From a virus: a stretch of 43,963 nucleotides of DNA. Below, piece after piece: positions 1,521-43,963 of the stretch. The translations under genes were made by a program, and so were the position numbers. Under the pieces are notes generated by a model. It was not told the DNA's origin and did not search any database. It worked only from the letters and a program-made list of their open reading frames with translations. The stretch lies in IMG/VR virus record IMGVR_UViG_3300028829_006752, positions 1-43,963 of that record. One strand, given 5' to 3'. Positions within the stretch are counted from its first letter, which is position 1. Every line of letters starts with the position of its first letter.

Positions 1521-2144
1521 ATGAAGGGGAAATTTATTGTACTCGATGGTTGCGACTTTACTGGTAAAAGTACACAAATTCAAAAAATTGCTTCCTACTT
1601 GCGAAGTAGAAACATAAAACATATCACAACTCGCGAACCCGGTGGCACACAAATTGGTGAACAAATTCGAGCAGTGGTTCTAGAAAATGGCAAACAATTG
1701 CATTCAAGTACAGAGCTTTTGCTTTTTATGGCGTCTCGTAGTGAACATATTTACAGTAAAATTATTCCAATGCTTGAGCAGGGAATTTCAATCATCTGTG
1801 ATCGCTTTCTTGCATCAAGCTTTGTGTATCAAGGGATATTAAGGGGTGCGTCAAGTAGCGTGATCTTCAATCTACATAGGGAAATTTTTAATAATTTACA
1901 ACCAGACACAATGTTTATTCTGGATATGCAACCTGAGCAAATCTTAGAACGCATGCAGGAAGTTGCGTTTAGAGGGTGTAATTCCTATGATAGTACAAAG
2001 CTTGAAGAAATCGTAAAAATACGCAATGGGTTTTTAGCATTTGCAAAAACACAACAATGCAAGGTAATTGATGCAAATCAAGAACAAGAAGAGGTTTTTG
2101 AACATATGCTAGATAGTATCAATATTATTTTCAATATTAGCTGA
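1521..2144 (+). CDS. tmk: Thymidylate (dTMP) kinase
   Basis: Phosphorylates dTMP to dTDP with ATP. The 207-residue length is normal for the family. The P-loop is LDGCDFTGKST (about residues 8-18), with Cys-Asp-Phe where most homologues have a Gly-rich xDGxG. It is followed by TREPGGT (dTMP-binding) and the DR motif in IICDRFLASSFVYQG near residue 95. It complements ThyX, dUTPase and ribonucleotide reductase on the other arc in a phage-encoded dTTP pathway. The start ATG at 1521 overlaps no other gene and has no Shine-Dalgarno. Confidence 0.93.
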   Translation: MKGKFIVLDGCDFTGKSTQIQKIASYLRSRNIKHITTREPGGTQIGEQIRAVVLENGKQLHSSTELLLFMASRSEHIYSKIIPMLEQGISIICDRFLASSFVYQGILRGASSSVIFNLHREIFNNLQPDTMFILDMQPEQILERMQEVAFRGCNSYDSTKLEEIVKIRNGFLAFAKTQQCKVIDANQEQEEVFEHMLDSINIIFNIS

Positions 2145-29944: not shown

Positions 29945-31735
29945 TTAATTACCGTTATTATTTAAACTTTCCTCTAAAAACTCAAGATCAAAATTATCCT
30001 TCAACTCCCCGTGTTCTCTGTCTGTAATTATGCCTCTAAAACTTGCGACATCTTTTTTGACCAAATCGGTATGCTCCATGCGACCTGAAATAGCTTCTAT
30101 TATATATCGTAAGTATTTCTTTTGCGTTCCTGACAAGGTTATCGCCTCTTCTCTATACTCAACATACGCTTCAAATGCAATTGGACACCATTCTTTTACA
30201 ATTTCAGCAAGCTTTTGAGCATAAACACGAATTTCATACTGTGCGTGCGGGTGAATACGAAGTTGTATAAAATGCAAAAGATTATGGAGGTCAATTTTCC
30301 AATACCATTCTGTATACATATTCAGAGGAAGCACTCCTCTTGCAATTTCCCGTGCAATACCAGAACCATCTTCACTACCAAGTAGGTTTGTGTAGTCTTG
30401 ATATGCTCTTTTTGAGCTTTCCTCTATTAGTTTTTGTGCATTTTTTGCTTCATCAATGGAAATTTCTCCACCTCTACATTGTTTATTTTGAGCAGACTGC
30501 GGAGCAATATTTTCAACTGCAGGGATATAATATTCTTCTGGCAAAATAGAATACCTTGCCGAACATTCGTTTACATTCGCTGTGCGGTGGCGAATCCATT
30601 GCCTGGCGATGAAAATTGGAAGTTTAATATGAAGCTTGATTTCGCACATTTCAAATGGTGAGGAGTTGCCACATACAAAGCCTTCACTCTGGCTACACCC
30701 TCTAACAAAAAGCAGCCCTGTCGATGTCGTAGTGCAGTAAACCTTACCTTGATAATGCGTTGTACTATGATATTGCTTACGAGACTCAAGCTCCGTTGTA
30801 GATTTGTAGGTAATGTTAATGGTGTTGTTCTTTAATATTACACCATGATAGCCAAGTAAGGCGGCAATAGTCTCAACTTTTTTAAGTAATGATTTAGAGT
30901 AGCTACAGTATATCCATCTAGGTCTCTTTGGATCGCAATAACCATCAGAATTAATTAACCCGTCTAAAATGGACTGTAAGAATACCGCATCCGCTTCCAT
31001 GCCATCGATGCACACATCTTTGGTTGTTGACTTAGCACCAAAATTAGTGTATCGTTTGATTTCGTCCGTTGCCGCAGCTCTGATCGTTGTGCATCCGTCA
31101 CTCCCAACCCTTTGTGTGTAGGGTAACTTCAACACATTAAGAATGTTGGTTAAATATTTTATTTTGCGTGTTTTTTTTAAATGAAAAGATATGGATGTTT
31201 TGTTTTCAGCACACCCGTCACCTAAGAAAAAGCCAACCAATTGACTGCTTGCATCAAATTCACATACTTGCTTTGAAAAGTTCTTTATAGAGTAAAAGCT
31301 ACCCCATTTAGACATTGTACCTGCCTCAACCTTGCTGTAATTGCTTTGGTCTTTGCCTTTAAAAAACATCTTGTGGTTCTCTGTGACTGAATACGACATC
31401 CTGCCACTTTTAAAATTACACATAATGCCATTATGATTAAATGTTTTGGTTGGCAACCATTCAAAAGTTACATTTCCATTTAAATCTGGTACAGCATACG
31501 ATTCATGCGAGCTACACTCATCCCATCTCTTCCACCCACACCGCGTAAGTACTTCCATGCTGGGGTGATAGCAGTGCTTATGTTTCATAAGATAGCGAAT
31601 AAGCCCCACATCATCCTTTTTACTCTTCGTTCCATCTCCATAAGACACTCTTGCAGCTTGCACAATTGAGGAGTCGTCTCCCATGGTGTCCACCACTCTA
31701 ATGAAGCCGTGGTCTAGAATGTCATACTTTTTCAT
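29945..31735 (-). CDS. thyX: Flavin-dependent thymidylate synthase ThyX interrupted by an intein
   Basis: The 596-residue precursor would yield a 293-residue ThyX (residues 1-54 joined to 358-596). The ThyX signature RHRTANVNECS (RHRx7S) lies in the C-extein, after SSPFEMCEIKLHIKLPIFIA. N- and C-exteins rejoin as LMKHKH/SSPFEM, the conserved HxSPFE site next to the active centre. It methylates dUMP to dTMP using methylenetetrahydrofolate, FAD and NADPH. It works with Dut, Nrd and Tmk in the same genome. Activity needs splicing. Confidence 0.92.
   Translation of the reverse strand: MKKYDILDHGFIRVVDTMGDDSSIVQAARVSYGDGTKSKKDDVGLIRYLMKHKHCYHPSMEVLTRCGWKRWDECSSHESYAVPDLNGNVTFEWLPTKTFNHNGIMCNFKSGRMSYSVTENHKMFFKGKDQSNYSKVEAGTMSKWGSFYSIKNFSKQVCEFDASSQLVGFFLGDGCAENKTSISFHLKKTRKIKYLTNILNVLKLPYTQRVGSDGCTTIRAAATDEIKRYTNFGAKSTTKDVCIDGMEADAVFLQSILDGLINSDGYCDPKRPRWIYCSYSKSLLKKVETIAALLGYHGVILKNNTINITYKSTTELESRKQYHSTTHYQGKVYCTTTSTGLLFVRGCSQSEGFVCGNSSPFEMCEIKLHIKLPIFIARQWIRHRTANVNECSARYSILPEEYYIPAVENIAPQSAQNKQCRGGEISIDEAKNAQKLIEESSKRAYQDYTNLLGSEDGSGIAREIARGVLPLNMYTEWYWKIDLHNLLHFIQLRIHPHAQYEIRVYAQKLAEIVKEWCPIAFEAYVEYREEAITLSGTQKKYLRYIIEAISGRMEHTDLVKKDVASFRGIITDREHGELKDNFDLEFLEESLNNNGN
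30665..31573 (-). other. ThyX intein with LAGLIDADG homing-endonuclease domain
   Basis: 303 residues (ThyX residues 55-357). Block A begins at Cys (CYHPSMEVLTRCGWKRW). Block B is GRMSYSVTENHKMF with the TxxH motif. Endonuclease motifs are LVGFFLGDGC and LQSILDGLINSDGYC. Block F is VYCTTTSTGLLFV, with the end FVCGN before Ser+1. Cys1, terminal Asn and Ser+1 are present, but the penultimate residue is Gly, not the usual His. Splicing is expected, possibly slower. It is inserted at a highly conserved ThyX site, as mobile inteins usually are. Confidence 0.9.
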
Positions 31736-31759
31736 ACTCTTTTATTAATAATTTTCAAT
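31722..31759 (-). repeat. 38-bp direct repeat at the thyX start (partner 34054-34091)
   Basis: 36 of 38 bases match 34054-34091. The copy here spans the first codons of thyX and a remnant of the end of the Ref-like gene (frame LKIINKRV then TGA). The two copies bracket both Dam genes. Confidence 0.85.
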
Positions 31760-31792
31760 GTTTGTAGGTGAAATCAAGGTCGGTTTTTTGCA

Positions 31793-32866
31793 TTATATAT
31801 TACAAAATATTTTCTCTTTTAAACAATTTGACATTAAAGAATACTTTCTTTCATATGATTCAATGCTTCCGACTTCACGCCAAGCGTCATTGTGGTTTGT
31901 GTACTCGGATATATAAACTTTGATGTTCCTTTCTTTCATTTCTTCTACCCACGCATCAAATCTTTCAAAATCAAATTCTACATTGTTATATGCTTTTGTG
32001 TTAATATATGGCGGATCGCAGTAAACTATAGAATTGGGCTGAAATTCAAACTCCCAGTAGTTTTTGCAAGTAAAGGTAATATTGCTTTCAAGTTGTTGAA
32101 GTCGCTCCAAACTCTCCAACCTCTCCAAACCCTGCAAACCCTGCAAACCGTGAATGAAATTTAATTTTATACTTTCCTCATTTTTTAATTCATTTTCATT
32201 TAAGTATTTACACCTCTCTACCATTGACTTCTTTTTTATAGCCTCATACTCTTCTTGCGTGCAATACAAATAAGGACTGTTACGCTTGCCAAAAGGTTTA
32301 TTGCGTGTATTTTTCAATATGTAATTTCTTAAAAATAGACGGCGTTCCCTTTGATTTTCAATATCATATACTTTGCTAAAATTTTGCCAATCATCCGTTT
32401 TACCAATTAATTCAAGAAAATTCTTGCCAGCATCCAAACACTTATTTACAACAACAAAATGAAATTGTTTTTTATAATTCTCAATATCTTTGCCAAACAA
32501 ATAACTATTTCCACTATTCCCAAACGACCAGCAACGGCGTATAAGTTCACCATACCAATCTTGTCTTTCTTTTAATTCAAAAAATTCTTCTCTTGAAATC
32601 CATTTATATAAAATCTCACTTTCAATTCCCTCTTTCAATTTTTTATGTAAATCAATAAGAGGTTGCTGTATGTCATTCATAACAACCTCGTAGCCTTGTT
32701 GAAAGAAATAATAACCAACAGCACCTCCGCCACAAAACAAATCGTATATTTTAGTAATATTGGTTTCCGCAAAAAGACAATTTGTGTTTCCCAAGTCTTT
32801 GTTTATAATTTCAAATATCTTTTTAACAATGGCTTGCTTTGAGCCTTGATATGGTATTCTATACAT
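31793..32866 (-). CDS. Dam-type adenine-N6 DNA methyltransferase, copy 1
   Basis: About 357 residues. SAM motif I is IYDLFCGGGAVGYYF and the catalytic motif is SIVYCDPPYIN, the D12-class order (FxGxG then DPPY). It starts at the ATG at 32866, eight bases inside the end of copy 2 (an in-frame GTG precedes it). Most of the sequence is nearly identical to copy 2, implying recent duplication. The linker before the SNITF segment is a short Leu/Gln/Glu repeat (LQGLQGLERLESLERLQQ). Target sequence unknown. Likely protects phage DNA from restriction. Confidence 0.9.
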   Translation of the reverse strand: MYRIPYQGSKQAIVKKIFEIINKDLGNTNCLFAETNITKIYDLFCGGGAVGYYFFQQGYEVVMNDIQQPLIDLHKKLKEGIESEILYKWISREEFFELKERQDWYGELIRRCWSFGNSGNSYLFGKDIENYKKQFHFVVVNKCLDAGKNFLELIGKTDDWQNFSKVYDIENQRERRLFLRNYILKNTRNKPFGKRNSPYLYCTQEEYEAIKKKSMVERCKYLNENELKNEESIKLNFIHGLQGLQGLERLESLERLQQLESNITFTCKNYWEFEFQPNSIVYCDPPYINTKAYNNVEFDFERFDAWVEEMKERNIKVYISEYTNHNDAWREVGSIESYERKYSLMSNCLKEKIFCNI

Positions 32867-34028
32867 CACTCAATATATTACAAAATATTTGCTCTTGTTT
32901 TTTTACTTTTTCTTTTAAACAATTTGACATTGAAGAATACTTTTCAATACTGCCAACCTCACGCCAAGCGTTGTTATGGTTTGTGTATTCGCTTATATAC
33001 ACACGCACGCCCTTTTGTTTCATTTCTTCTACCCACGCATCAAATTTTTCAAAATCAAAGATTTGCTTGTTGTATCTCAAGGTGTTAATATACGGTGGAT
33101 CGCAGTAAACAATAGAATTGGGCTGAAATTCAAACTCCCAGTAGTTTTTGCAAGTAAAGGTAATATTGCTTTCAAGTTGTTGAAGTTGTTGAAGTGGTTG
33201 AAGTGGTTCAAGTTGTTCAAGTCGTTGAAGTTGTTCAAGTTGTTGAAGTTGCTCAAGTGGTTCAAGTCGCTCAAGGTGTTGAAATTGTTGAAGTCGCTCA
33301 AGTTGTTGAAGTCGTTGTTCAAGTTGTTCAAGTCCTCTGTCATTTTTCAATTGGCTTTCATTCAAATATTTACACTTTTCCAACATTGAATAATCTTTTA
33401 TAACTTCATACTCTTCTTGCGTACAGTATAAATAAGCATTGTTATGCTTGCCAAAGCGTTTATTGCGTGTATTTTTCAATATGTAATTTCTTAAAAATAG
33501 ACGGCGTTCCCTTTGATTTTCAATATCATATACTTTGCTAAAATTTTGCCAATCATCCGTTTTACCAATCATTTCAAGCCACTCCTTGCCAGCTTCTTTG
33601 CATTTATTTACAACTACAAAATGCCCTTGTTTTTTATAATTCTCAATATCTTTGCCAAACAAATAACTATTTCCACTATTCCCAAACGACCAGCAAAGGC
33701 GTATAAGTTGACCATACCAATCTTGTCTTTCTTTTAATTCAACAAACTCCTCCCCTGAAATCCATTTATATAAAAGCTCTTCGTTAATTCCTTCTTGCAA
33801 TTTCTTATGTAAGTCAATCAAAGGTTGCTGTATATCGTTCATAACAACTTGAAAACCTTGTTGATAAAAATAATAACCAACTGCACCACCACCACAAAAC
33901 AAATCGTATATTTTAGTAATATTGTTTTCCGCAAAAAGACAATTTGTGTTTCCCAAGTCTTTGTTTATAATTTCAAATATCTTTTTAACAATGGCTTGCT
34001 TTGAGCCTTGATATGGTATTCTATACAT
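32859..34028 (-). CDS. Dam-type adenine-N6 DNA methyltransferase, copy 2
   Basis: About 389 residues, with the same motifs as copy 1 (DLFCGGGAVG and SIVYCDPPYIN). The N-terminal 60 residues differ from copy 1 at only a few positions. The central linker is a long three-residue-periodic run (LEQLQQLERLQQFQH... ), encoded by a 9-bp minisatellite and longer than in copy 1. The C-terminus adds VKKQEQ and ILSDV, and its stop overlaps copy 1. Co-translation with copy 1 is likely. Confidence 0.9.
   Translation of the reverse strand: MYRIPYQGSKQAIVKKIFEIINKDLGNTNCLFAENNITKIYDLFCGGGAVGYYFYQQGFQVVMNDIQQPLIDLHKKLQEGINEELLYKWISGEEFVELKERQDWYGQLIRLCWSFGNSGNSYLFGKDIENYKKQGHFVVVNKCKEAGKEWLEMIGKTDDWQNFSKVYDIENQRERRLFLRNYILKNTRNKRFGKHNNAYLYCTQEEYEVIKDYSMLEKCKYLNESQLKNDRGLEQLEQRLQQLERLQQFQHLERLEPLEQLQQLEQLQRLEQLEPLQPLQQLQQLESNITFTCKNYWEFEFQPNSIVYCDPPYINTLRYNKQIFDFEKFDAWVEEMKQKGVRVYISEYTNHNNAWREVGSIEKYSSMSNCLKEKVKKQEQIFCNILSDV
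33173..33335 (-). repeat. 9-bp minisatellite coding a Leu/Gln/Glu linker in Dam copy 2
   Basis: About 17 degenerate copies of GTTGAAGTT-like 9-mers (plus-strand reading) encode LxxLxx periodicity. The equivalent place in copy 1 (about 32087-32150) has a shorter, diverged version. Because units are multiples of three bases, copy-number changes alter linker length without breaking frame. Confidence 0.85.
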
Positions 34029-34053
34029 CACTCAATTTTAATTAATTAAGATA

Positions 34054-34091
34054 TCATACTTTTTCATACTCTTTCATTAACAATTTTCAAT
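34054..34091 (-). repeat. 38-bp direct repeat at the end of the Ref-like gene (partner 31722-31759)
   Basis: Covers the last codons (KIVNERV, stop) of the Ref-like gene and a vestigial ATGAAAAAGTATGA identical to the beginning of thyX, now 25 bases upstream of Dam copy 2. It shows that thyX once followed this gene directly, with an ATGA overlap. Confidence 0.85.
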
Positions 34092-34357
34092 AAATTCTGT
34101 TGCGTATCAAATTTTTCTTCCCATGTATTGACTCCCGCATGCACTGCTACACCATGCCCGCCCGTTCTATGGTGCATGTGGCACAATGGAATAACCTCTG
34201 TGTGTTTTGCTCTTGCACCAAATCCAGATGTCTTTGTAATATGGTGTAATTCTGCTGGTGTTCCGTGTGCATCAAAAAATAACTCACACACAATACACCC
34301 TATTTCTGCAACCTGCGACATATATTCACGCTCTTGTTTATTGGCTCTCTTTTTCAT
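34064..34357 (-). CDS. Ref/HNH-like Zn nuclease
   Basis: 97 residues. CIVC (Zn), then LHHITKTSGFGARAKHTEVI and PLCHMHHRTGGHGVAVHAG give the Cys-x2-Cys/His-His/Cys-x2-His-His pattern of Ref-type (RecA-dependent) HNH nucleases of phages. It could nick DNA during recombination or repair. Unusually for this genome it has a Shine-Dalgarno-like AGGAG (34361-34365) close to the ATG at 34357. It follows nrdA with a 9-base gap. Confidence 0.82.
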   Translation of the reverse strand: MKKRANKQEREYMSQVAEIGCIVCELFFDAHGTPAELHHITKTSGFGARAKHTEVIPLCHMHHRTGGHGVAVHAGVNTWEEKFDTQQNLLKIVNERV

Positions 34358-34366
34358 ACACTCCTT

Positions 34367-36136
34367 TTACTGACACACCTCACACTCTTTATTGCCAAAA
34401 TCACTAATAGAAAAGCCTCTACAATAATATAAGGACTTCAAGCCAAGCTTCCATGCAAGCCAATGAATTTCATGTAATTCCTCTTTTGCGATAGTGGGGC
34501 TTAACAATACATTTAGTGACTGACCTTGACATATATACGCTTGACGCTGTGCTGCAAGTCTTATTAAGGCTTTTTGTTCTATTAAACGCCACGGCTTAAA
34601 TGCTTTCATTTCTTCCGCAGAGAAGAGACCGCCCAACTGTAAATTAGCCTTTCGCAAGTCGCCATCAACCTTTAAAATTGTTGATATAACAAAGTCTTGA
34701 AATTCAGGCTTGAACTTTTTTGAATTTAGCAACTCTTGAAAGGTAGGTGTGATAATAATTTGCGTCCCCTCTTTTGCCTGATCTGTATAAACACAAGCAT
34801 AATGTGGCTCAATTCCTTGACTCACTTGTCCCGCAATCTTGCCAATGGTTGCCGTTGGTGCAATAGCAAATATATGTGTAAATCTTGCTCCGCCTATTGG
34901 ACGGCAATACTCACTAACATCATAATAATCTTCAAAGCTACCGCGGATTTGTGCAAGCCCTGTATTTGCATCGCATGCTCTGTCATGTATGTCACTAAAG
35001 ATTCTCTCATTCACCTCAAAAGCCTCTTCACTCTCAATGTCTATCAAATGTTTTTGTAGGTATGAATGAAAGCCCATAACTCCAAGACCGACCGATCTTT
35101 CACGCATTGCTGAATATCTTGCACAAGAAATTTCATCTGGGGCATTGTCAATAAAATACTGCAATACATTATCAAGGAACATAAGAATATCTTGAATAAA
35201 ATCTTGATTGTCTCTCCACTCATCGTATGTATATAAATTTAATGATGATAAGCAACAAACCGCAGTTCGCTTTTTGTCAAGATGGTCTTTGCCAGTAGTA
35301 AGCATAATTTCCGTGCAAAGATTTGACATTTTTACTTTTAAATCAAGCTCCTCATAAGAAAATGGCAAATGTTTATTTACATTATCTTCAAATACAATAT
35401 ACGGCTCACCAGTCTCATGTCGCATAATTAAAATATCTTGCCACAGCTCCCTTGCATTAATACCATATTTTGCTTTTTGCTTTGTGCTTGGCGAGGTAAA
35501 ATACCATTTTTCATTGTGTGCGACTGCGTGCATGAACTCATCGTTGATAACAATTCCATGATGTGCAGTTGCAACGCCAACAACCTTCCTTTTGTTCTCA
35601 CCGCCACTGAATCTAATATATAAAAATTCTTCAATTTCTGGGTGTGAAATATGAAGATATGCTGCCAACGCACCACGGCGAGTGCCTGCTTGCATAATGG
35701 CATCAACTGCCTTGTAGTTTATTATCATTGTTGGAATAACACCAGCCGTCTCACCCTTGTCTTTTATGGCACAACCCACTTCACGGATGTTAGAAAAGTT
35801 GGTGCCAATCCCACCGCCATAAGAAGTAAGGTACTCACTCTCCACTCTCGTGTCAATAATGTCTTTAAGAGTGTCCTCAGCTTCATTGAGGAAGCAGGAA
35901 ATAGGCATATTTTTACTTGAGCCTGCATTTGCAAGTATTGGGGTAGCTGGCAAAAACCACCCATTTACAAGGTATTCATAAATCTTTTTTTGATGTATTT
36001 CATCTGTAGAGAATGCAGATGATACTCTTTCAAATAATTCTTCAATGCTACTTTCATCATTTTTGTAATAACCATTTTGCAAAATACTTTCACGCACTTT
36101 CTTTTGGTTCTTAGTTTGTTTATTATAATAGCTCAT
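34367..36136 (-). CDS. nrdA: Class I ribonucleotide reductase, alpha subunit
   Basis: 589 residues. Catalytic set: PISCFL (reducing Cys), SNLCTEI (Asn, thiyl Cys, Glu), SLYYCRG near the C-terminus (radical-transfer Tyr pair and Cys), and a C-terminal CEVCQ redox tail. The N-terminal ATP-cone is absent, so dATP feedback inhibition is not expected. Reduces ribonucleotides to deoxyribonucleotides with NrdB. The start overlaps the NrdB stop by four bases. Confidence 0.95.
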   Translation of the reverse strand: MSYYNKQTKNQKKVRESILQNGYYKNDESSIEELFERVSSAFSTDEIHQKKIYEYLVNGWFLPATPILANAGSSKNMPISCFLNEAEDTLKDIIDTRVESEYLTSYGGGIGTNFSNIREVGCAIKDKGETAGVIPTMIINYKAVDAIMQAGTRRGALAAYLHISHPEIEEFLYIRFSGGENKRKVVGVATAHHGIVINDEFMHAVAHNEKWYFTSPSTKQKAKYGINARELWQDILIMRHETGEPYIVFEDNVNKHLPFSYEELDLKVKMSNLCTEIMLTTGKDHLDKKRTAVCCLSSLNLYTYDEWRDNQDFIQDILMFLDNVLQYFIDNAPDEISCARYSAMRERSVGLGVMGFHSYLQKHLIDIESEEAFEVNERIFSDIHDRACDANTGLAQIRGSFEDYYDVSEYCRPIGGARFTHIFAIAPTATIGKIAGQVSQGIEPHYACVYTDQAKEGTQIIITPTFQELLNSKKFKPEFQDFVISTILKVDGDLRKANLQLGGLFSAEEMKAFKPWRLIEQKALIRLAAQRQAYICQGQSLNVLLSPTIAKEELHEIHWLAWKLGLKSLYYCRGFSISDFGNKECEVCQ

Positions 36137-37206
36137 AAATCATATTTACAATTATCCCAATTTCCAGATGTTGTGTTGTGTGCATAGTCAGTCACCACAC
36201 ATTCAAAAAAATTCACAATACCAGTGTTTAAAATCTCATCCATAAAAGGCAATGGATTTTGTTGTATGTGATACATTGTTTTTAACCCCAATTGCTTTAA
36301 TCTAATATCCGCAATGTAGCGAATGTATAGCTTCACACTTTCCGCTGTAATGGTAAAAAAAGAGCCTTGACACGGTGTAAAAACATAATCAATGAAAGCA
36401 TCTTCAAAATGCACAATTGCACCAGATATTGTATATAGCTCCTTTTTTAAGGATTCCGTCCAAATATCGGGGTTTTCATTTTTAAAGGTATGAAATAGCT
36501 TGATAATAGCCTCAACATGTAATGCTTCGTCTTTTAAAGACCATTTAATAGTTTCGTTGATTCCCTGTAAAACTCCACCATTTACAGTGCGTGATGGTTC
36601 AAACAATATAGCAAACGAGCTATACAGTTGTAATCCCTCTGTAAATGCACCAAAGCAAGCAAGGTTTTTTAATATTTCCTCTTTATATTTTTGTCCCAAA
36701 AATTGGTTACAATCTATAACGCCATTAGATCTGTTATGAATAATTAACTCAACAATCTTTTGCAAAGAATGTTTGTTTAGATAGTCACTCTTATCTTGCA
36801 TTTCCTTAATTCCCTGATACTCAGTAAAAAAGCCATTTAGCCTTGTTTTTGAAAGATTAAGTGTTTCAATTAGTTTAGCATACGCCTCAACATGTATATT
36901 TTCACGATCCGCAAAACTACACAACATTGCATTAACATCTTGATGTCTAAAAATTTGCATCAAATTATCTGTGTAATTATTGCAAACCGAGACATCAGCT
37001 TGCGTAAAAAATTGTAAAATACGCATTAATGTATCTTGTGCCGGCTGTGGCAGTGAGTAAAACTCACGCTTTGTGCGTGTATGGCTAACTTGTGATACCT
37101 GCCAATGCATTGTATCACTATGCTGCTCTTTTACAGCTTTACACCAATCATATTGTGAATGCGTTTCATAGTGAACACACGGGTTGAGTAAATTATTCAT
37201 AATCAT
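36133..37206 (-). CDS. nrdB: Class I ribonucleotide reductase, beta subunit
   Basis: 357 residues. Di-iron ligands appear in FADRENIHVEAYAKLIE (Glu, His) and KDEALHVEAI (Glu, His), with the radical Tyr in HVEAY at the family position. Generates the tyrosyl radical for NrdA. The order beta then alpha is reversed relative to many operons. Encoded 10 bases after the dUTPase gene. Confidence 0.94.
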   Translation of the reverse strand: MIMNNLLNPCVHYETHSQYDWCKAVKEQHSDTMHWQVSQVSHTRTKREFYSLPQPAQDTLMRILQFFTQADVSVCNNYTDNLMQIFRHQDVNAMLCSFADRENIHVEAYAKLIETLNLSKTRLNGFFTEYQGIKEMQDKSDYLNKHSLQKIVELIIHNRSNGVIDCNQFLGQKYKEEILKNLACFGAFTEGLQLYSSFAILFEPSRTVNGGVLQGINETIKWSLKDEALHVEAIIKLFHTFKNENPDIWTESLKKELYTISGAIVHFEDAFIDYVFTPCQGSFFTITAESVKLYIRYIADIRLKQLGLKTMYHIQQNPLPFMDEILNTGIVNFFECVVTDYAHNTTSGNWDNCKYDL

Positions 37207-37215
37207 TAAAACATT

Positions 37216-37872
37216 TTATTTTCCAGTTGACCCAAAACCTCCACGATCCGTGGAACTAATCTCATCTACAACCTCAAGCTGTGATGGCTCTAAGCTTCTA
37301 ATAAGCATTTGTGCAATCTTATCACCTTTTTTAATCATGTAAGGTTCATGCCCAAAGTTTTCAATAATAACACCAATTTCTTGACGGTATGAATTGTCTA
37401 TTGTTCCAACGCCATTTGCAACTCTAATTCCATGCTTTAGACAAAGTCCAGAGCGTGAGCGAATGTCCGCTACTGCGTATTTTTTTATTAATTTACTTTC
37501 AAGATGTAATGGAAATCCGTGAGTTTTCGGTATAGGTTTTATATCATCACATAAATCGTCACCATCATAATATCTACCAGTATTAGTAAAACTCCAATCG
37601 TCAACTTGTAATGTATCCTCAGGTCGTTGTTCATTTGTGTATAAATATCTGCAGTCTTTAGGCAACTCAATTGCAATTCCTGTTTTTATGAGTATTCTAC
37701 CTTGTGGCTCAAGATAACACTTATTCCCAATTATTTCTTCGAGTTTAATTTGAGTATCCCTTAAATGCTCTGCACAAAAGTCATCAACATATAAATCCCA
37801 AAGGTCACCTGCGTTTTCCTGTGTTGGAACTCTTGCCGTTTTCGTTAGTTTTTTTACTTTAAAAGGTATCAT
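37216..37872 (-). CDS. dut: dUTP diphosphatase
   Basis: 218 residues. Trimeric dUTPase motifs in order: AGDLWDLY (1), DIRSRSGL (2), GVGTIDNSYRQEIGVII (3), GDKIAQMLI (4), STDRGGFGSTGK (5). There is an insertion of roughly 70 residues between motifs 1 and 2 (QRPEDTLQVDDWSFTNTGRY onward), typical of some phage forms. The ATG at 37872 (MIPFKVKKLTKTARVP) fits family starts better than the GTG at 37938, which overlaps the previous stop. Hydrolyses dUTP, keeping uracil out of DNA and feeding ThyX with dUMP. Confidence 0.93.
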   Translation of the reverse strand: MIPFKVKKLTKTARVPTQENAGDLWDLYVDDFCAEHLRDTQIKLEEIIGNKCYLEPQGRILIKTGIAIELPKDCRYLYTNEQRPEDTLQVDDWSFTNTGRYYDGDDLCDDIKPIPKTHGFPLHLESKLIKKYAVADIRSRSGLCLKHGIRVANGVGTIDNSYRQEIGVIIENFGHEPYMIKKGDKIAQMLIRSLEPSQLEVVDEISSTDRGGFGSTGK

Positions 37873-37934
37873 ATATAAAATATCATTTTGATTATAAATA
37901 CTTTCAATATAATAAATTATAATGTCAAGCAGTA

Positions 37935-38258
37935 TCACCTTTTATTATCTAAAACCTCTACTATATAATTTTCTACTTTCAGTTTCCTATCATCAGTACT
38001 AAAAAACTGCTCTCTCCGTATTTTAACTTTCAAAATATCTCCTTTTGCAAACTGTACAAGGCTATTTTCAACTTTTTCTACAAAATCATTATCCTCCACA
38101 ATAGCATAAAAACTTGACTGCCCATCATTTACAAACCATTTATTCCCCTCTTTAACGCTTAATTTCACTATATTAATTCTTGTAATAAATGTAACATCGT
38201 CTTGAAGCTTTGTTTTATTTTCTAATGCTTTTCCATGATAAATTAATTGAAAGTGCAT
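37935..38258 (-). CDS. Protein of unknown function, first gene of the leftward arc (107 aa)
   Basis: Beta-rich, charged, beginning MHFQLIYHGKALENKTKLQD and containing FAKGDILKVKIRREQFFSTD, which could be an OB-like or similar small barrel. It precedes dut. First in an early leftward operon, it may be a regulator or DNA-metabolism accessory. No family recognised. Confidence 0.65.
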   Translation of the reverse strand: MHFQLIYHGKALENKTKLQDDVTFITRINIVKLSVKEGNKWFVNDGQSSFYAIVEDNDFVEKVENSLVQFAKGDILKVKIRREQFFSTDDRKLKVENYIVEVLDNKR

Positions 38259-39396: not shown

Positions 39397-40431
39397 ATGG
39401 ACGCACAACAGCAAGTATTTTTACGCAAAGAGCAAATACCATTTACAATGGTTGCTAACGCTATTATTTTTGATAGCAGGATTTCAAGTAAGGCAAAATT
39501 TTATTATGTTTATTTGTCAAGTAAGCCCGACGCATGGAAATTTCATACAAATTGCATTGTAAAAGAAATTAAAGAAGGTAGAGATGCTTTTTATAATGGA
39601 TTAAAAGAGCTTATTGAGTTTGGATACCTTGAAAGGCAACAAATCAAAGAAAATGGAAAATTCAAACATACAGACTATATCTTAAAAATACCGTATACGG
39701 AAAACACGGACACGGAAAAGCCGTATACGGAAAACACGGACTATAATAATAAAGACTTAAATAAGAATGATAAAAGTAATAAAGATATAAAAGACACCGC
39801 AAGCGGTTCTCCTCTTTCTCAATTTGAAGAGTTTTGGAATGAATACGGGAAAAAAGTAAAAAAACCAAAAGCGGAGGAGAGTTACAAGCATGCACTCAAA
39901 ACAAAAGACACCACTTTTCAAAGTATAATGAAGGGAGTTAAAAAGTACAATGAGTATTTGAATGTTGCAATATGGCTTGAAAGGGCAGACCCTACCACTT
40001 GGTTAAATGGTCAACGCTGGAATGATGATTATGATGATTTGATAAAACAAGAGTATAAGAAGAATGGAAAAACACCACCAATTCAACAGAAAAGCCCCGA
40101 GAAGCAACAAGAGGAGGTAAGAATGAAGGAAGACGCACAAAAGAAGCGTGAAGGCGTTTTAAGGTTTTTAAACGACAATGAGACAGAATTTATGAACCAT
40201 ATTAAGGAAAGCTTGAAAACAGATTATTTTACAAACCCACTCCATCATTTCTGGATTAATGATCTTGTTTTTTGTTATAGAGATAAAGTTGCATATTTGG
40301 GCTTTACCCAGCAAAAACATATTGACGCAGTGGAGCGAAATTTTACAAAAATTGAACAAATTATTGTTCGTGCATTGAGTGTATGTGATGAATTGAAGGC
40401 GGAAAAAATAGAATTGAAATTAATTGATTAA
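39397..40431 (+). CDS. Replication initiator protein (lambda O/HTH_36-like)
   Basis: 344 residues. The N-terminal winged-helix domain (FTMVANAIIFDSRISSKAKF and the recognition region KEGRDAFYNGLKELIEFGYL) spans residues 1-98. A polar linker (PYTENTDTEKPYTENTDYNN) coincides with iteron-like repeats in the DNA. The C-terminal region begins FEEFWNEYGKKVKKPKAEES and has TTWLNGQRWNDDYDD, common in phage O/DnaT-like replication proteins. It probably binds the origin within its own gene and recruits host helicase; no helicase gene is visible in the window. Confidence 0.83.
   Translation: MDAQQQVFLRKEQIPFTMVANAIIFDSRISSKAKFYYVYLSSKPDAWKFHTNCIVKEIKEGRDAFYNGLKELIEFGYLERQQIKENGKFKHTDYILKIPYTENTDTEKPYTENTDYNNKDLNKNDKSNKDIKDTASGSPLSQFEEFWNEYGKKVKKPKAEESYKHALKTKDTTFQSIMKGVKKYNEYLNVAIWLERADPTTWLNGQRWNDDYDDLIKQEYKKNGKTPPIQQKSPEKQQEEVRMKEDAQKKREGVLRFLNDNETEFMNHIKESLKTDYFTNPLHHFWINDLVFCYRDKVAYLGFTQQKHIDAVERNFTKIEQIIVRALSVCDELKAEKIELKLID
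39691..39790 (+). other. Predicted replication origin: iterons plus A/T-rich tract inside the initiator gene
   Basis: The 20-bp block CCGTATACGGAAAACACGGA occurs at 39691-39710 and 39721-39740. ACGGAAAA recurs at 39697, 39712 and 39727, exactly 15 bases apart. Each 20-mer starts with the perfect palindrome CCGTATACGG. Immediately downstream, about 39741-39790 is almost only A/T with few G/C, like a DNA unwinding element. The layout (wing-helix domain, iterons, A/T tract within one gene) mirrors lambda O/ori. Confidence 0.68.
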
Positions 40432-42334: not shown

Positions 42335-42883
42335 ATGAAAAAATATCAAATAATATATGCTGATCCGCCATGGCAATATAGCGACAAAGCAAAGCCTCGC
42401 GGTGGTGCAGAAAAACACTACAAAACAATTTCTACACAGGATATTTGTAATCTTGGTGTAAAAGATATAAAAACAGATGATGCAATGTGCTTTATGTGGG
42501 CAACTTTTCCAAACATTGATCAAGCGTTGCAAGTTATGCAATCTTGGGGCTTTGTATATAAAACCGCTGCGTTCGTTTGGATTAAAAAAAACAAAAAAAG
42601 CAATACTAATTTTTGGGGAATGGGTGCATACACAAGGGCAAATGCTGAAATATGCTTGCTCGGTATTAGCAAAAATACAAAAGCAAAAACAATGGTCATT
42701 GCACACAATATACATCAGGTCATTGAAAGACCAATAGAAAAACACAGTAAAAAGCCCGATTGTGTGCGTGAAAAGATTGTTGAATTGCTTGGAGACTTAC
42801 CACGAGTTGAGTTATTTGCACGACAAAGGGCAGAGGGTTGGGACGCATTTGGCAATGAAATTGAAAACAGTATCAACTTATAA
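42335..42883 (+). CDS. MT-A70-type adenine DNA methyltransferase
   Basis: 182 residues. Catalytic motif IIYADPPWQYSD, then HYKTISTQDICNLGVKDI, CFMWATFPNIDQAL, a substrate region VWIKKNKKSN and a C-terminal SAM-binding segment KKPDCVREKIVELLGDL, with RVELFARQRAEGWDAFGNE. A complete MT-A70 enzyme. With the two Dam proteins it gives three intact adenine methyltransferases. Target unknown. Confidence 0.93.
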   Translation: MKKYQIIYADPPWQYSDKAKPRGGAEKHYKTISTQDICNLGVKDIKTDDAMCFMWATFPNIDQALQVMQSWGFVYKTAAFVWIKKNKKSNTNFWGMGAYTRANAEICLLGISKNTKAKTMVIAHNIHQVIERPIEKHSKKPDCVREKIVELLGDLPRVELFARQRAEGWDAFGNEIENSINL

Positions 42884-43450: not shown

Positions 43451-43963
43451 ATGCAAATTATAGACTGTAAAAATTTAACTGGACTTGATACTAGATACAA
43501 AAGATACAAAAACTATGCAGGAGTGGTAAGGTTAATAAACTGTGTTAATCTGGTGGATATTAAACTCTCTAATACACAAATTACATCTTTAGAGGGACTA
43601 GAGAGCTGTGTTAATCTTAAGGTGCTTAAACTCTCTAATACACAAATTACATCTTTGAAGGGACTAGAGAGCTGTGTTAATCTGGTGGATATTACACTCT
43701 CTAATACACAAATTACATCTTTGAAGGGACTGGAGAATTGTATTAATCTTAAGTGGCTCGACATCTCTAATACACAAATCAAATCTTTGAAGGGACTAGA
43801 GAATTGTATTAATCTTAAGTGGATTCACATCTCTAATACACAAATTACATCTTTAGAGGGACTAGAGAGCTGTGTTAATCTTAAGGTGCTTAAACTCTCT
43901 AATACACAAATTACATCTTTGAAGGGACTAGAGAGCTGTGTTAATCTGGTGGATATTACACTC
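43451..43963 (+). CDS. Leucine-rich-repeat protein, N-terminal part (continues at the left end of the window)
   Basis: From ATG 43451: MQIIDCKNLTGLDTRYKRYK, then a unique N-cap (NYAGVVRLINCVNLVDIKL) followed by 22-residue LRR units starting at 43589, 43655, 43721, 43787, 43853 and 43919. Two units have LEGLESC instead of LKGLESC. There is no signal peptide, so it is probably cytoplasmic or virion-associated. The last 243 bases overlap bases 1-243, giving a predicted 302-residue protein in the circular genome. The gene is the best candidate here for rapid, repeat-based change of binding specificity. Confidence 0.88.
   Translation, partial: MQIIDCKNLTGLDTRYKRYKNYAGVVRLINCVNLVDIKLSNTQITSLEGLESCVNLKVLKLSNTQITSLKGLESCVNLVDITLSNTQITSLKGLENCINLKWLDISNTQIKSLKGLENCINLKWIHISNTQITSLEGLESCVNLKVLKLSNTQITSLKGLESCVNLVDITL
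43721..43963 (+). repeat. Right copy of the 243-bp terminal direct repeat (other copy 1-243)
   Basis: See the left copy. Differences are only at 43855-43856, inside an LRR unit. In frame with the left end, supporting circular closure here. Confidence 0.75.

Follow-up and report, generated by a model that had tools for sequence, protein, structure and literature searches.

A probable phage replication origin that overlaps the linker codons of its initiator gene

What is a short, regular array of repeats, followed at once by an A/T-rich tract, doing in the middle of a phage gene: does it encode something that the protein needs, does it control the gene, or does replication start there? The locus lies in a 43,963-nucleotide stretch of viral DNA (IMG/VR record IMGVR_UViG_3300028829_006752), the whole of which we call the window. 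Lambda, SPP1, 80alpha and RepA_N plasmids are known to have their origins within initiator genes, and the original prediction was of a lambda-like origin embedded in a replication initiator gene. As we argue below, comparison with relatives makes it very probable that this is a theta-type origin of phage replication, sharing its DNA with the codons for the linker of the initiator. The relevant features are the following.

39397..40431, + strand: replication initiator gene, 344 aa, phrog_270 (from the ORF list; phrog_270 'replication initiation protein', E=1.5e-33)
39445..39687, + strand: N-terminal winged-helix domain, predicted to bind DNA, residues 17-97 (AlphaFold2 block, pLDDT 83-96)
39691..39705, + strand: iteron 1, CCGTATACGGAAAAC (repeat search)
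39706..39720, + strand: iteron 2, ACGGACACGGAAAAG, with a conserved right and a degenerate left half (repeat search)
39721..39735, + strand: iteron 3, CCGTATACGGAAAAC (repeat search)
39700..39795, + strand: predicted disordered linker, residues 102-133, with the putative origin overlaid on its codons (AlphaFold2 pLDDT <50)
39742..39796, + strand: A/T-rich candidate unwinding element, 85% A+T, with its own A/T repeats of about 15 bp at 39745-39787
39811..40008, + strand: helical C-terminal domain, residues 139-204 (AlphaFold2 pLDDT about 91-97)

The protein is recognised through profiles, matching phrog_428 (E=1.4e-9) in addition to phrog_270; against Pfam it returned 0 families at E<=1, a PDB sequence search gave no match, and a Foldseek search with the predicted structure gave nothing at E<=0.001. 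The solved structures nearest to the N-terminal domain in fold, according to VIA-align, are RctB, RepA_N initiators and DnaD, with Z scores of 8.5, 8.2 and 8.1 to the RepA_N initiators 4pql, 4pt7 and 5kbj (a Rep-DNA complex included) and 6.9 to DnaD; note that other winged helices score up to 9.4 and that winged helices are a common fold. The C-terminal domain has a weak profile match to the SPP1 helicase loader G39P (1no1, E=0.068), a faint hint that it may be helicase-loader or DnaT/DnaD-like. The two domains flank the linker in the model, in agreement with the proposal that the array sits inside the initiator ORF between its HTH domain and C-terminal region.

The array itself is highly regular. 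An exact 21-bp direct repeat, CCGTATACGGAAAACACGGAC, occurs at 39691-39711 and again at 39721-39741, spaced 30 bp, and lengthens to 26 bp at 92% identity; the two palindrome-bearing repeats originally described are thus real, with a true length of 21 rather than 20 bp. The palindrome CCGTATACGG starts at 39691 and 39721, in iterons 1 and 3, and has no other copy in the window. We also recovered the threefold ACGGAAAA at 39697, 39712 and 39727, at a spacing of exactly 15 bp as had been noticed. The 21-bp pair is the window's longest exact short-distance repeat, whereas the longest such repeat was at most 13 in Markov-simulated windows (n=20) and at most 15 in codon-order shuffles of the initiator gene (n=2000). 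When synonymous codons were resampled with the peptide held fixed, only 12 of 20000 trials gave three copies of ACGGAAAA, and only 2 of 20000 gave two copies of CCGTATACGG. The strongly A/T tract said to follow straight after the repeats is there as well: positions 39742-39791 are 88% A+T, which ties the gene's maximum and falls in the top 0.7% of the window. One further CCGN4CGG (CCGCAAGCGG) lies at the far end of the A/T tract, 39797-39806, and carries no AAAA tail. The putative origin stretch as a whole folds better as single-stranded DNA than its shuffles (z -3.7), which reflects no more than the pairing of the two palindromes with each other. Counting against an origin, there are only three iterons, the middle one degenerate.

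Repetitive DNA inside a gene may be no more than the shadow of a repetitive protein. If selection had acted on a repeated peptide (xTENP), useful to the protein as, say, a flexible or interacting linker, the repetition in the DNA would be a by-product. A tblastn search with the initiator found relatives in 215 phage and 98 plasmid records, with hosts that include Staphylococcus, Lactobacillus, Bacteroides, Vibrio, actinobacterial hosts and others; searching viral contigs with the single protein yielded no relative, and megablast against phage records gave no match. All 16 phage relatives that we fetched carry repeats, or a degenerate trace of them, after the same domain, mostly with a 15-bp period. 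Most of these have tandem CCGN4CGGAAAAN, a Pontimonas phage has TCCACTGTGGA, a Flavobacterium phage has a 16-bp repeat step that shifts the frame, and the evidence for repeats is weakest in the actinobacterial phages.

We then scanned IMG/VR viral contigs blind to the protein, for two tandem units (CCGN4CGGAAAANCCGN4CGGAAAA), and obtained at least 120 stretches. Of the 120 listed, 107 have the match within an ORF that carries this N-terminal domain (E<1e-3), normally just downstream of that domain; the other 13 are mostly contig-end cuts, broken or recoded genes, or chance. One of these 13, L078, has eight in-frame TGA codons in its initiator frame and no TAA or TAG, which suggests that TGA codes for an amino acid in this virus. 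Clustering the 107 genes at 70% identity of the N-terminal domain left 67 clusters among the matches listed, with the repeats in phase 0 in 50, in phase 1 in nine, in phase 2 in one and on the opposite strand in seven.

The same frame is therefore kept in most relatives (50 of the 67 listed clusters), as a selected peptide would have it, and unrelated coding repeats can imitate the pattern: in bacterial genomes 58 of 119 matches fall inside such a gene and many of the others are G+C-rich PEN-type coding repeats, so that the specificity of the scan is high in viral contigs and moderate in bacterial genomes. Against this, the remaining 17 listed clusters use another frame or strand at the same position in the gene, and what the repeat encodes varies accordingly, from TENP to GKT, RKNR and GFPSS. 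With each of the three frames in use, and in some cases the opposite strand, it is the DNA that is conserved and not the peptide. Codon choice in the window points the same way: within the repeats Thr is encoded by ACG in five cases out of five and Pro by CCG in two out of two, where the share of either codon elsewhere in the phage is 12%. The linker is, moreover, predicted to be disordered, and orphan iterons with an A/T tract exist where every frame has stops, as at 4095-4200 of L257 (Lysinibacillus), around 7154 on the minus strand of L243 (a Clostridiales MAG) and at 11904-12000 of L027 (a viral contig). Such orphans could be relics, or could serve as decoys by titrating phage initiators; the larger ORFs next to those of L257 and L243 do not look phage-like by eye. 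Selection on the peptide alone is, on this evidence, hardly credible. Comparison instead shows selection for the DNA of both the three 15-bp iterons and the A/T tract, and ties them to this initiator, and related phages and plasmids of many bacteria evidently keep this two-part DNA signal even where it is read in another frame or in reverse. The inference of a phage origin gains considerably from this conservation across frames and strands at one position in the gene.

The second part of the signal has a direction of its own. On the gene's downstream side of the iterons, A+T averages 69%, compared with 55% for the locus, and exceeds the locus mean in 55 of the 60 same-strand clusters listed; upstream of the iterons the listed clusters show no rise in A+T. 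In the opposite-strand clusters the downstream side likewise has 70% A+T against 53%, in seven of the seven listed. These seven loci (L031, L044, L122, L024, L030, L046 and L086), in which the iterons are reversed with respect to the gene and the A/T tract is still downstream of them in the gene's sense, have ACTAA on the gene strand in six cases. That the tract and ACTAA stay gene-oriented under reversed iterons implies that it is the gene, and not the iterons, that sets the direction of the element.

Nor is the tract A/T-rich in just any manner. The hexamer TACTAA occurs 50 times in the A/T tracts of the viral clusters (matches listed), where synonymous resampling predicts 7.7+-2.2, and 34 times in an independent sample of bacterial genomes, where 4.8+-1.8 are expected. 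Control windows in the same genes have no comparable enrichment, most counts falling within the resampling range, with one window in the C-terminal domain at 3 against 0.7 expected. The preference goes beyond plain A/T richness: at equal A+T, ACT is favoured over ACA and CTA over CTT. ACTAA is found in 39 of the 67 listed clusters. TACTAA is enriched in the family and is not universal, hence no defining feature; the window's own tract (39742-39796) lacks the exact hexamer and has ACTATAATAATAAAG instead.

How does this arrangement relate to origins that have been worked on at the bench? In staphylococcal phage 80alpha, deletion of ORF20 abolishes replication and is not complemented in trans, from which the authors infer that the origin is embedded in the gene, and ORF20 and ORF21 together drive autonomous replication (PMC5499656). 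The 80alpha record annotates a putative rep_origin in the same gene. Its product, gp20 (of the phage 80/phiETA type), has an N-terminal domain related to that of the window protein (HMM score 111 bits), and here too 15-bp dyad iterons come right after the N-terminal domain and are followed by an A/T tract; the phage 80 homologue matches the window protein in tblastn. Unlike the window, 80alpha has a Phg_2220_C C-terminal domain, a TACTAA-rich A/T tract, and several iterons whose halves are CCAAC/TTGG or ATGG in place of CCG/CGG; a DnaC-like loader gene follows its initiator. Phages 80 and 80alpha differ from one another in an instructive way: DNA identity is 66% in the N-terminal domain and 63% in the iterons, compared with 99% in the A/T tract and 95% in the C-terminal domain. 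Identity thus changes at the very border of iterons and A/T tract, which is where we would expect the junction if the N-terminal domain recognises the iterons.

A plasmid tells a similar story. The rep gene of pPR9 has a phage-type N-terminal domain with TEN-type iterons and an A/T tract in mid-gene, as in the window, and pPR9 replicates as a mini-replicon (PMC5703833); it differs in being a plasmid, in its pSK41-type C-terminal domain (Bac_RepA_C) and in a long insert before the iterons. The origin inference thus draws further support from two relatives with evidence for an in-gene origin or autonomous replication, 80alpha ORF20 (PMC5499656) and pPR9 (PMC5703833). The RepA_N plasmids pSK41 and pTZ2162 share with the window the position of the iterons in mid-gene, A tracts in these iterons and, perhaps, a winged-helix/DnaD-like fold of the N-terminal domain. 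The pSK41 origin, with four Rep boxes, lies in mid-rep, and the part of the protein encoded there is dispensable (PMC5703833). Their iterons are built on 8- and 9-bp repeats (PMC7145576), unlike the 15-bp CCGN4CGGAAAAN unit of the window, and the RepA_N domain PF06970 found no match in the window protein (Pfam, E<=1) and was absent for 40 relatives among the 25 families listed. We place the window initiator among the initiators of HTH_36 type with an origin embedded in the gene (80alpha gp20, pPR9), its nearest kin, noting that 35 of 40 aligned relatives match HTH_36 and the window protein itself does not. Common to the window and this group are a homologous N-terminal domain, adjoining 15-bp iterons and a downstream A/T tract on the gene strand.

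'Lambda-like' then holds for the layout and the presumed mechanism, and fails for the family. As in the window, lambda ori places iterons and an A/T tract inside the initiator gene, gene O, between the DNA-binding and C-terminal parts, and unwinding in lambda needs no more than two iterons and the A/T tract, as cited in PMC7466680. The window protein has no match to the lambda O domain (Phage_rep_O, PF04492) at E<=1, a search in which the lambda O control scores 5.7e-36; hhalign against lambda O gives a probability of 0.1%; and lambda has four 18-bp sites of TCCCTCAAAACGAGGGA type, which differ from the window iterons in both length and sequence. With neither PF04492, nor profile similarity, nor common iterons, the window protein falls outside the lambda O family. 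In lambda, gene P adjoins O; among the downstream ORFs scanned in the window (small ORFs covered in part), a P/DnaC-type loader beside the initiator found no match.

A further resemblance is to the chromosomal origin of Bacillus subtilis, where the oriC strand 5'-CTACTATTACTTCTACTA-3' is recognised by DnaD opposite the DnaA-trios (PMC10201434). The A/T tracts of the family, with ACTACTAA/TACTAA downstream of predicted protein-binding sites, resemble this strand, a resemblance of motif only. The window differs from B. subtilis oriC in that its DnaA-box-like sites are not above chance (7 found versus 9 expected) and its tract is without exact TACTAA.

Even granted that DNA was selected, the site might do something other than start replication. 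The iterons could be mainly an operator through which the initiator represses or times its own expression, with the true origin elsewhere: a winged-helix protein seated on dyad sites within the gene that encodes it could form a roadblock, and terminator-like stems are present there on the minus strand. The stems, however, follow from CCG..CGG adjoining an A run, and reading them as a terminator is weak. The array also sits in mid-gene and not at a promoter, the A/T tract with its own conserved motif is always downstream in the listed clusters, and the evidence from 80alpha and pPR9/pSK41 puts the origin in this very part of the gene. We regard a mainly regulatory function as very unlikely, although an additional regulatory role of the iterons may exist. 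It is extremely unlikely that the origin is some other repeat-rich place, for instance the 66-bp tandem arrays at the window ends (1-624 and 43540-43963). Strong as these arrays are, they are long, their translation is leucine-rich-repeat-like and they are located at contig ends, and DnaA-box-like sites are no commoner than chance; we rejected the arrays as coding repeats. GC skew, one of the checks originally suggested, proved uninformative: a flip is seen near 38.5-39 kb, and we discount it as origin evidence because the sign follows gene direction, the + genes at 1-4 kb included.

How, then, might the initiator-gene origin work? The N-terminal winged-helix domain would bind the iterons, with dimers probably occupying the CCG-N4-CGG dyads, and by analogy with lambda and plasmid Rep proteins the resulting complex would open the A/T tract at 39742-39796. 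The C-terminal domain might then bring in the replicative helicase of the host, or the loader of that helicase, where the strand has opened. The scan of window proteins turned up neither a helicase nor a DnaC/P-type loader among those covered, which makes the host helicase the likely client. The disordered linker would tolerate whatever peptide the origin happens to encode. With the N-terminal domain and iterons side by side, initiator and site could travel together by recombination.

A wider reading, which we hold with no more conviction than doubt, is that phage and plasmid initiators of many phyla share a portable origin code, in which 15-bp CCGN4CGGAAAAN iterons and a TACTAA-rich unwinding element are kept as DNA in any frame and with the iterons on either strand. 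The cassettes exchanged would be the N-terminal domain with its iterons on the one hand and the unwinding element with the C-terminal domain on the other, and the motif would be convergent with, or related to, the DnaA-trio/DnaD element. If the cassette picture is true, origin specificity, incompatibility and phage recombination could become readable from sequence. The TACTAA motif offers a testable link to the opening of bacterial chromosomes. What is added here to the origins already known inside initiator genes is a comparative case for a signal that resides in the DNA and not in the peptide, together with a DNA signature that locates such origins in uncultured phages without protein evidence. 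A search of open-access papers for the iteron strings gave no match, which does not prove them undescribed.

Some observations concern the rest of the window. The same 66-bp tandem repeat, encoding a leucine-rich-repeat-like protein, is found at both ends (1-624 and 43540-43963), and the record is probably a circular genome that assembly broke inside this one coding repeat. Two adjacent genes on the minus strand, 31793-32869 and 32859-34031, both match the DNA methyltransferase family phrog_56, the second containing a 9-bp tandem array of about 18 copies (33171-33333), and an MT-A70 gene lies at 42335-42883. A large nucleotide-metabolism set at 29945-38258 (-) and 1521-2144 (+) comprises a thymidylate synthase family gene, both ribonucleotide reductase subunits, dUTPase and thymidylate kinase.
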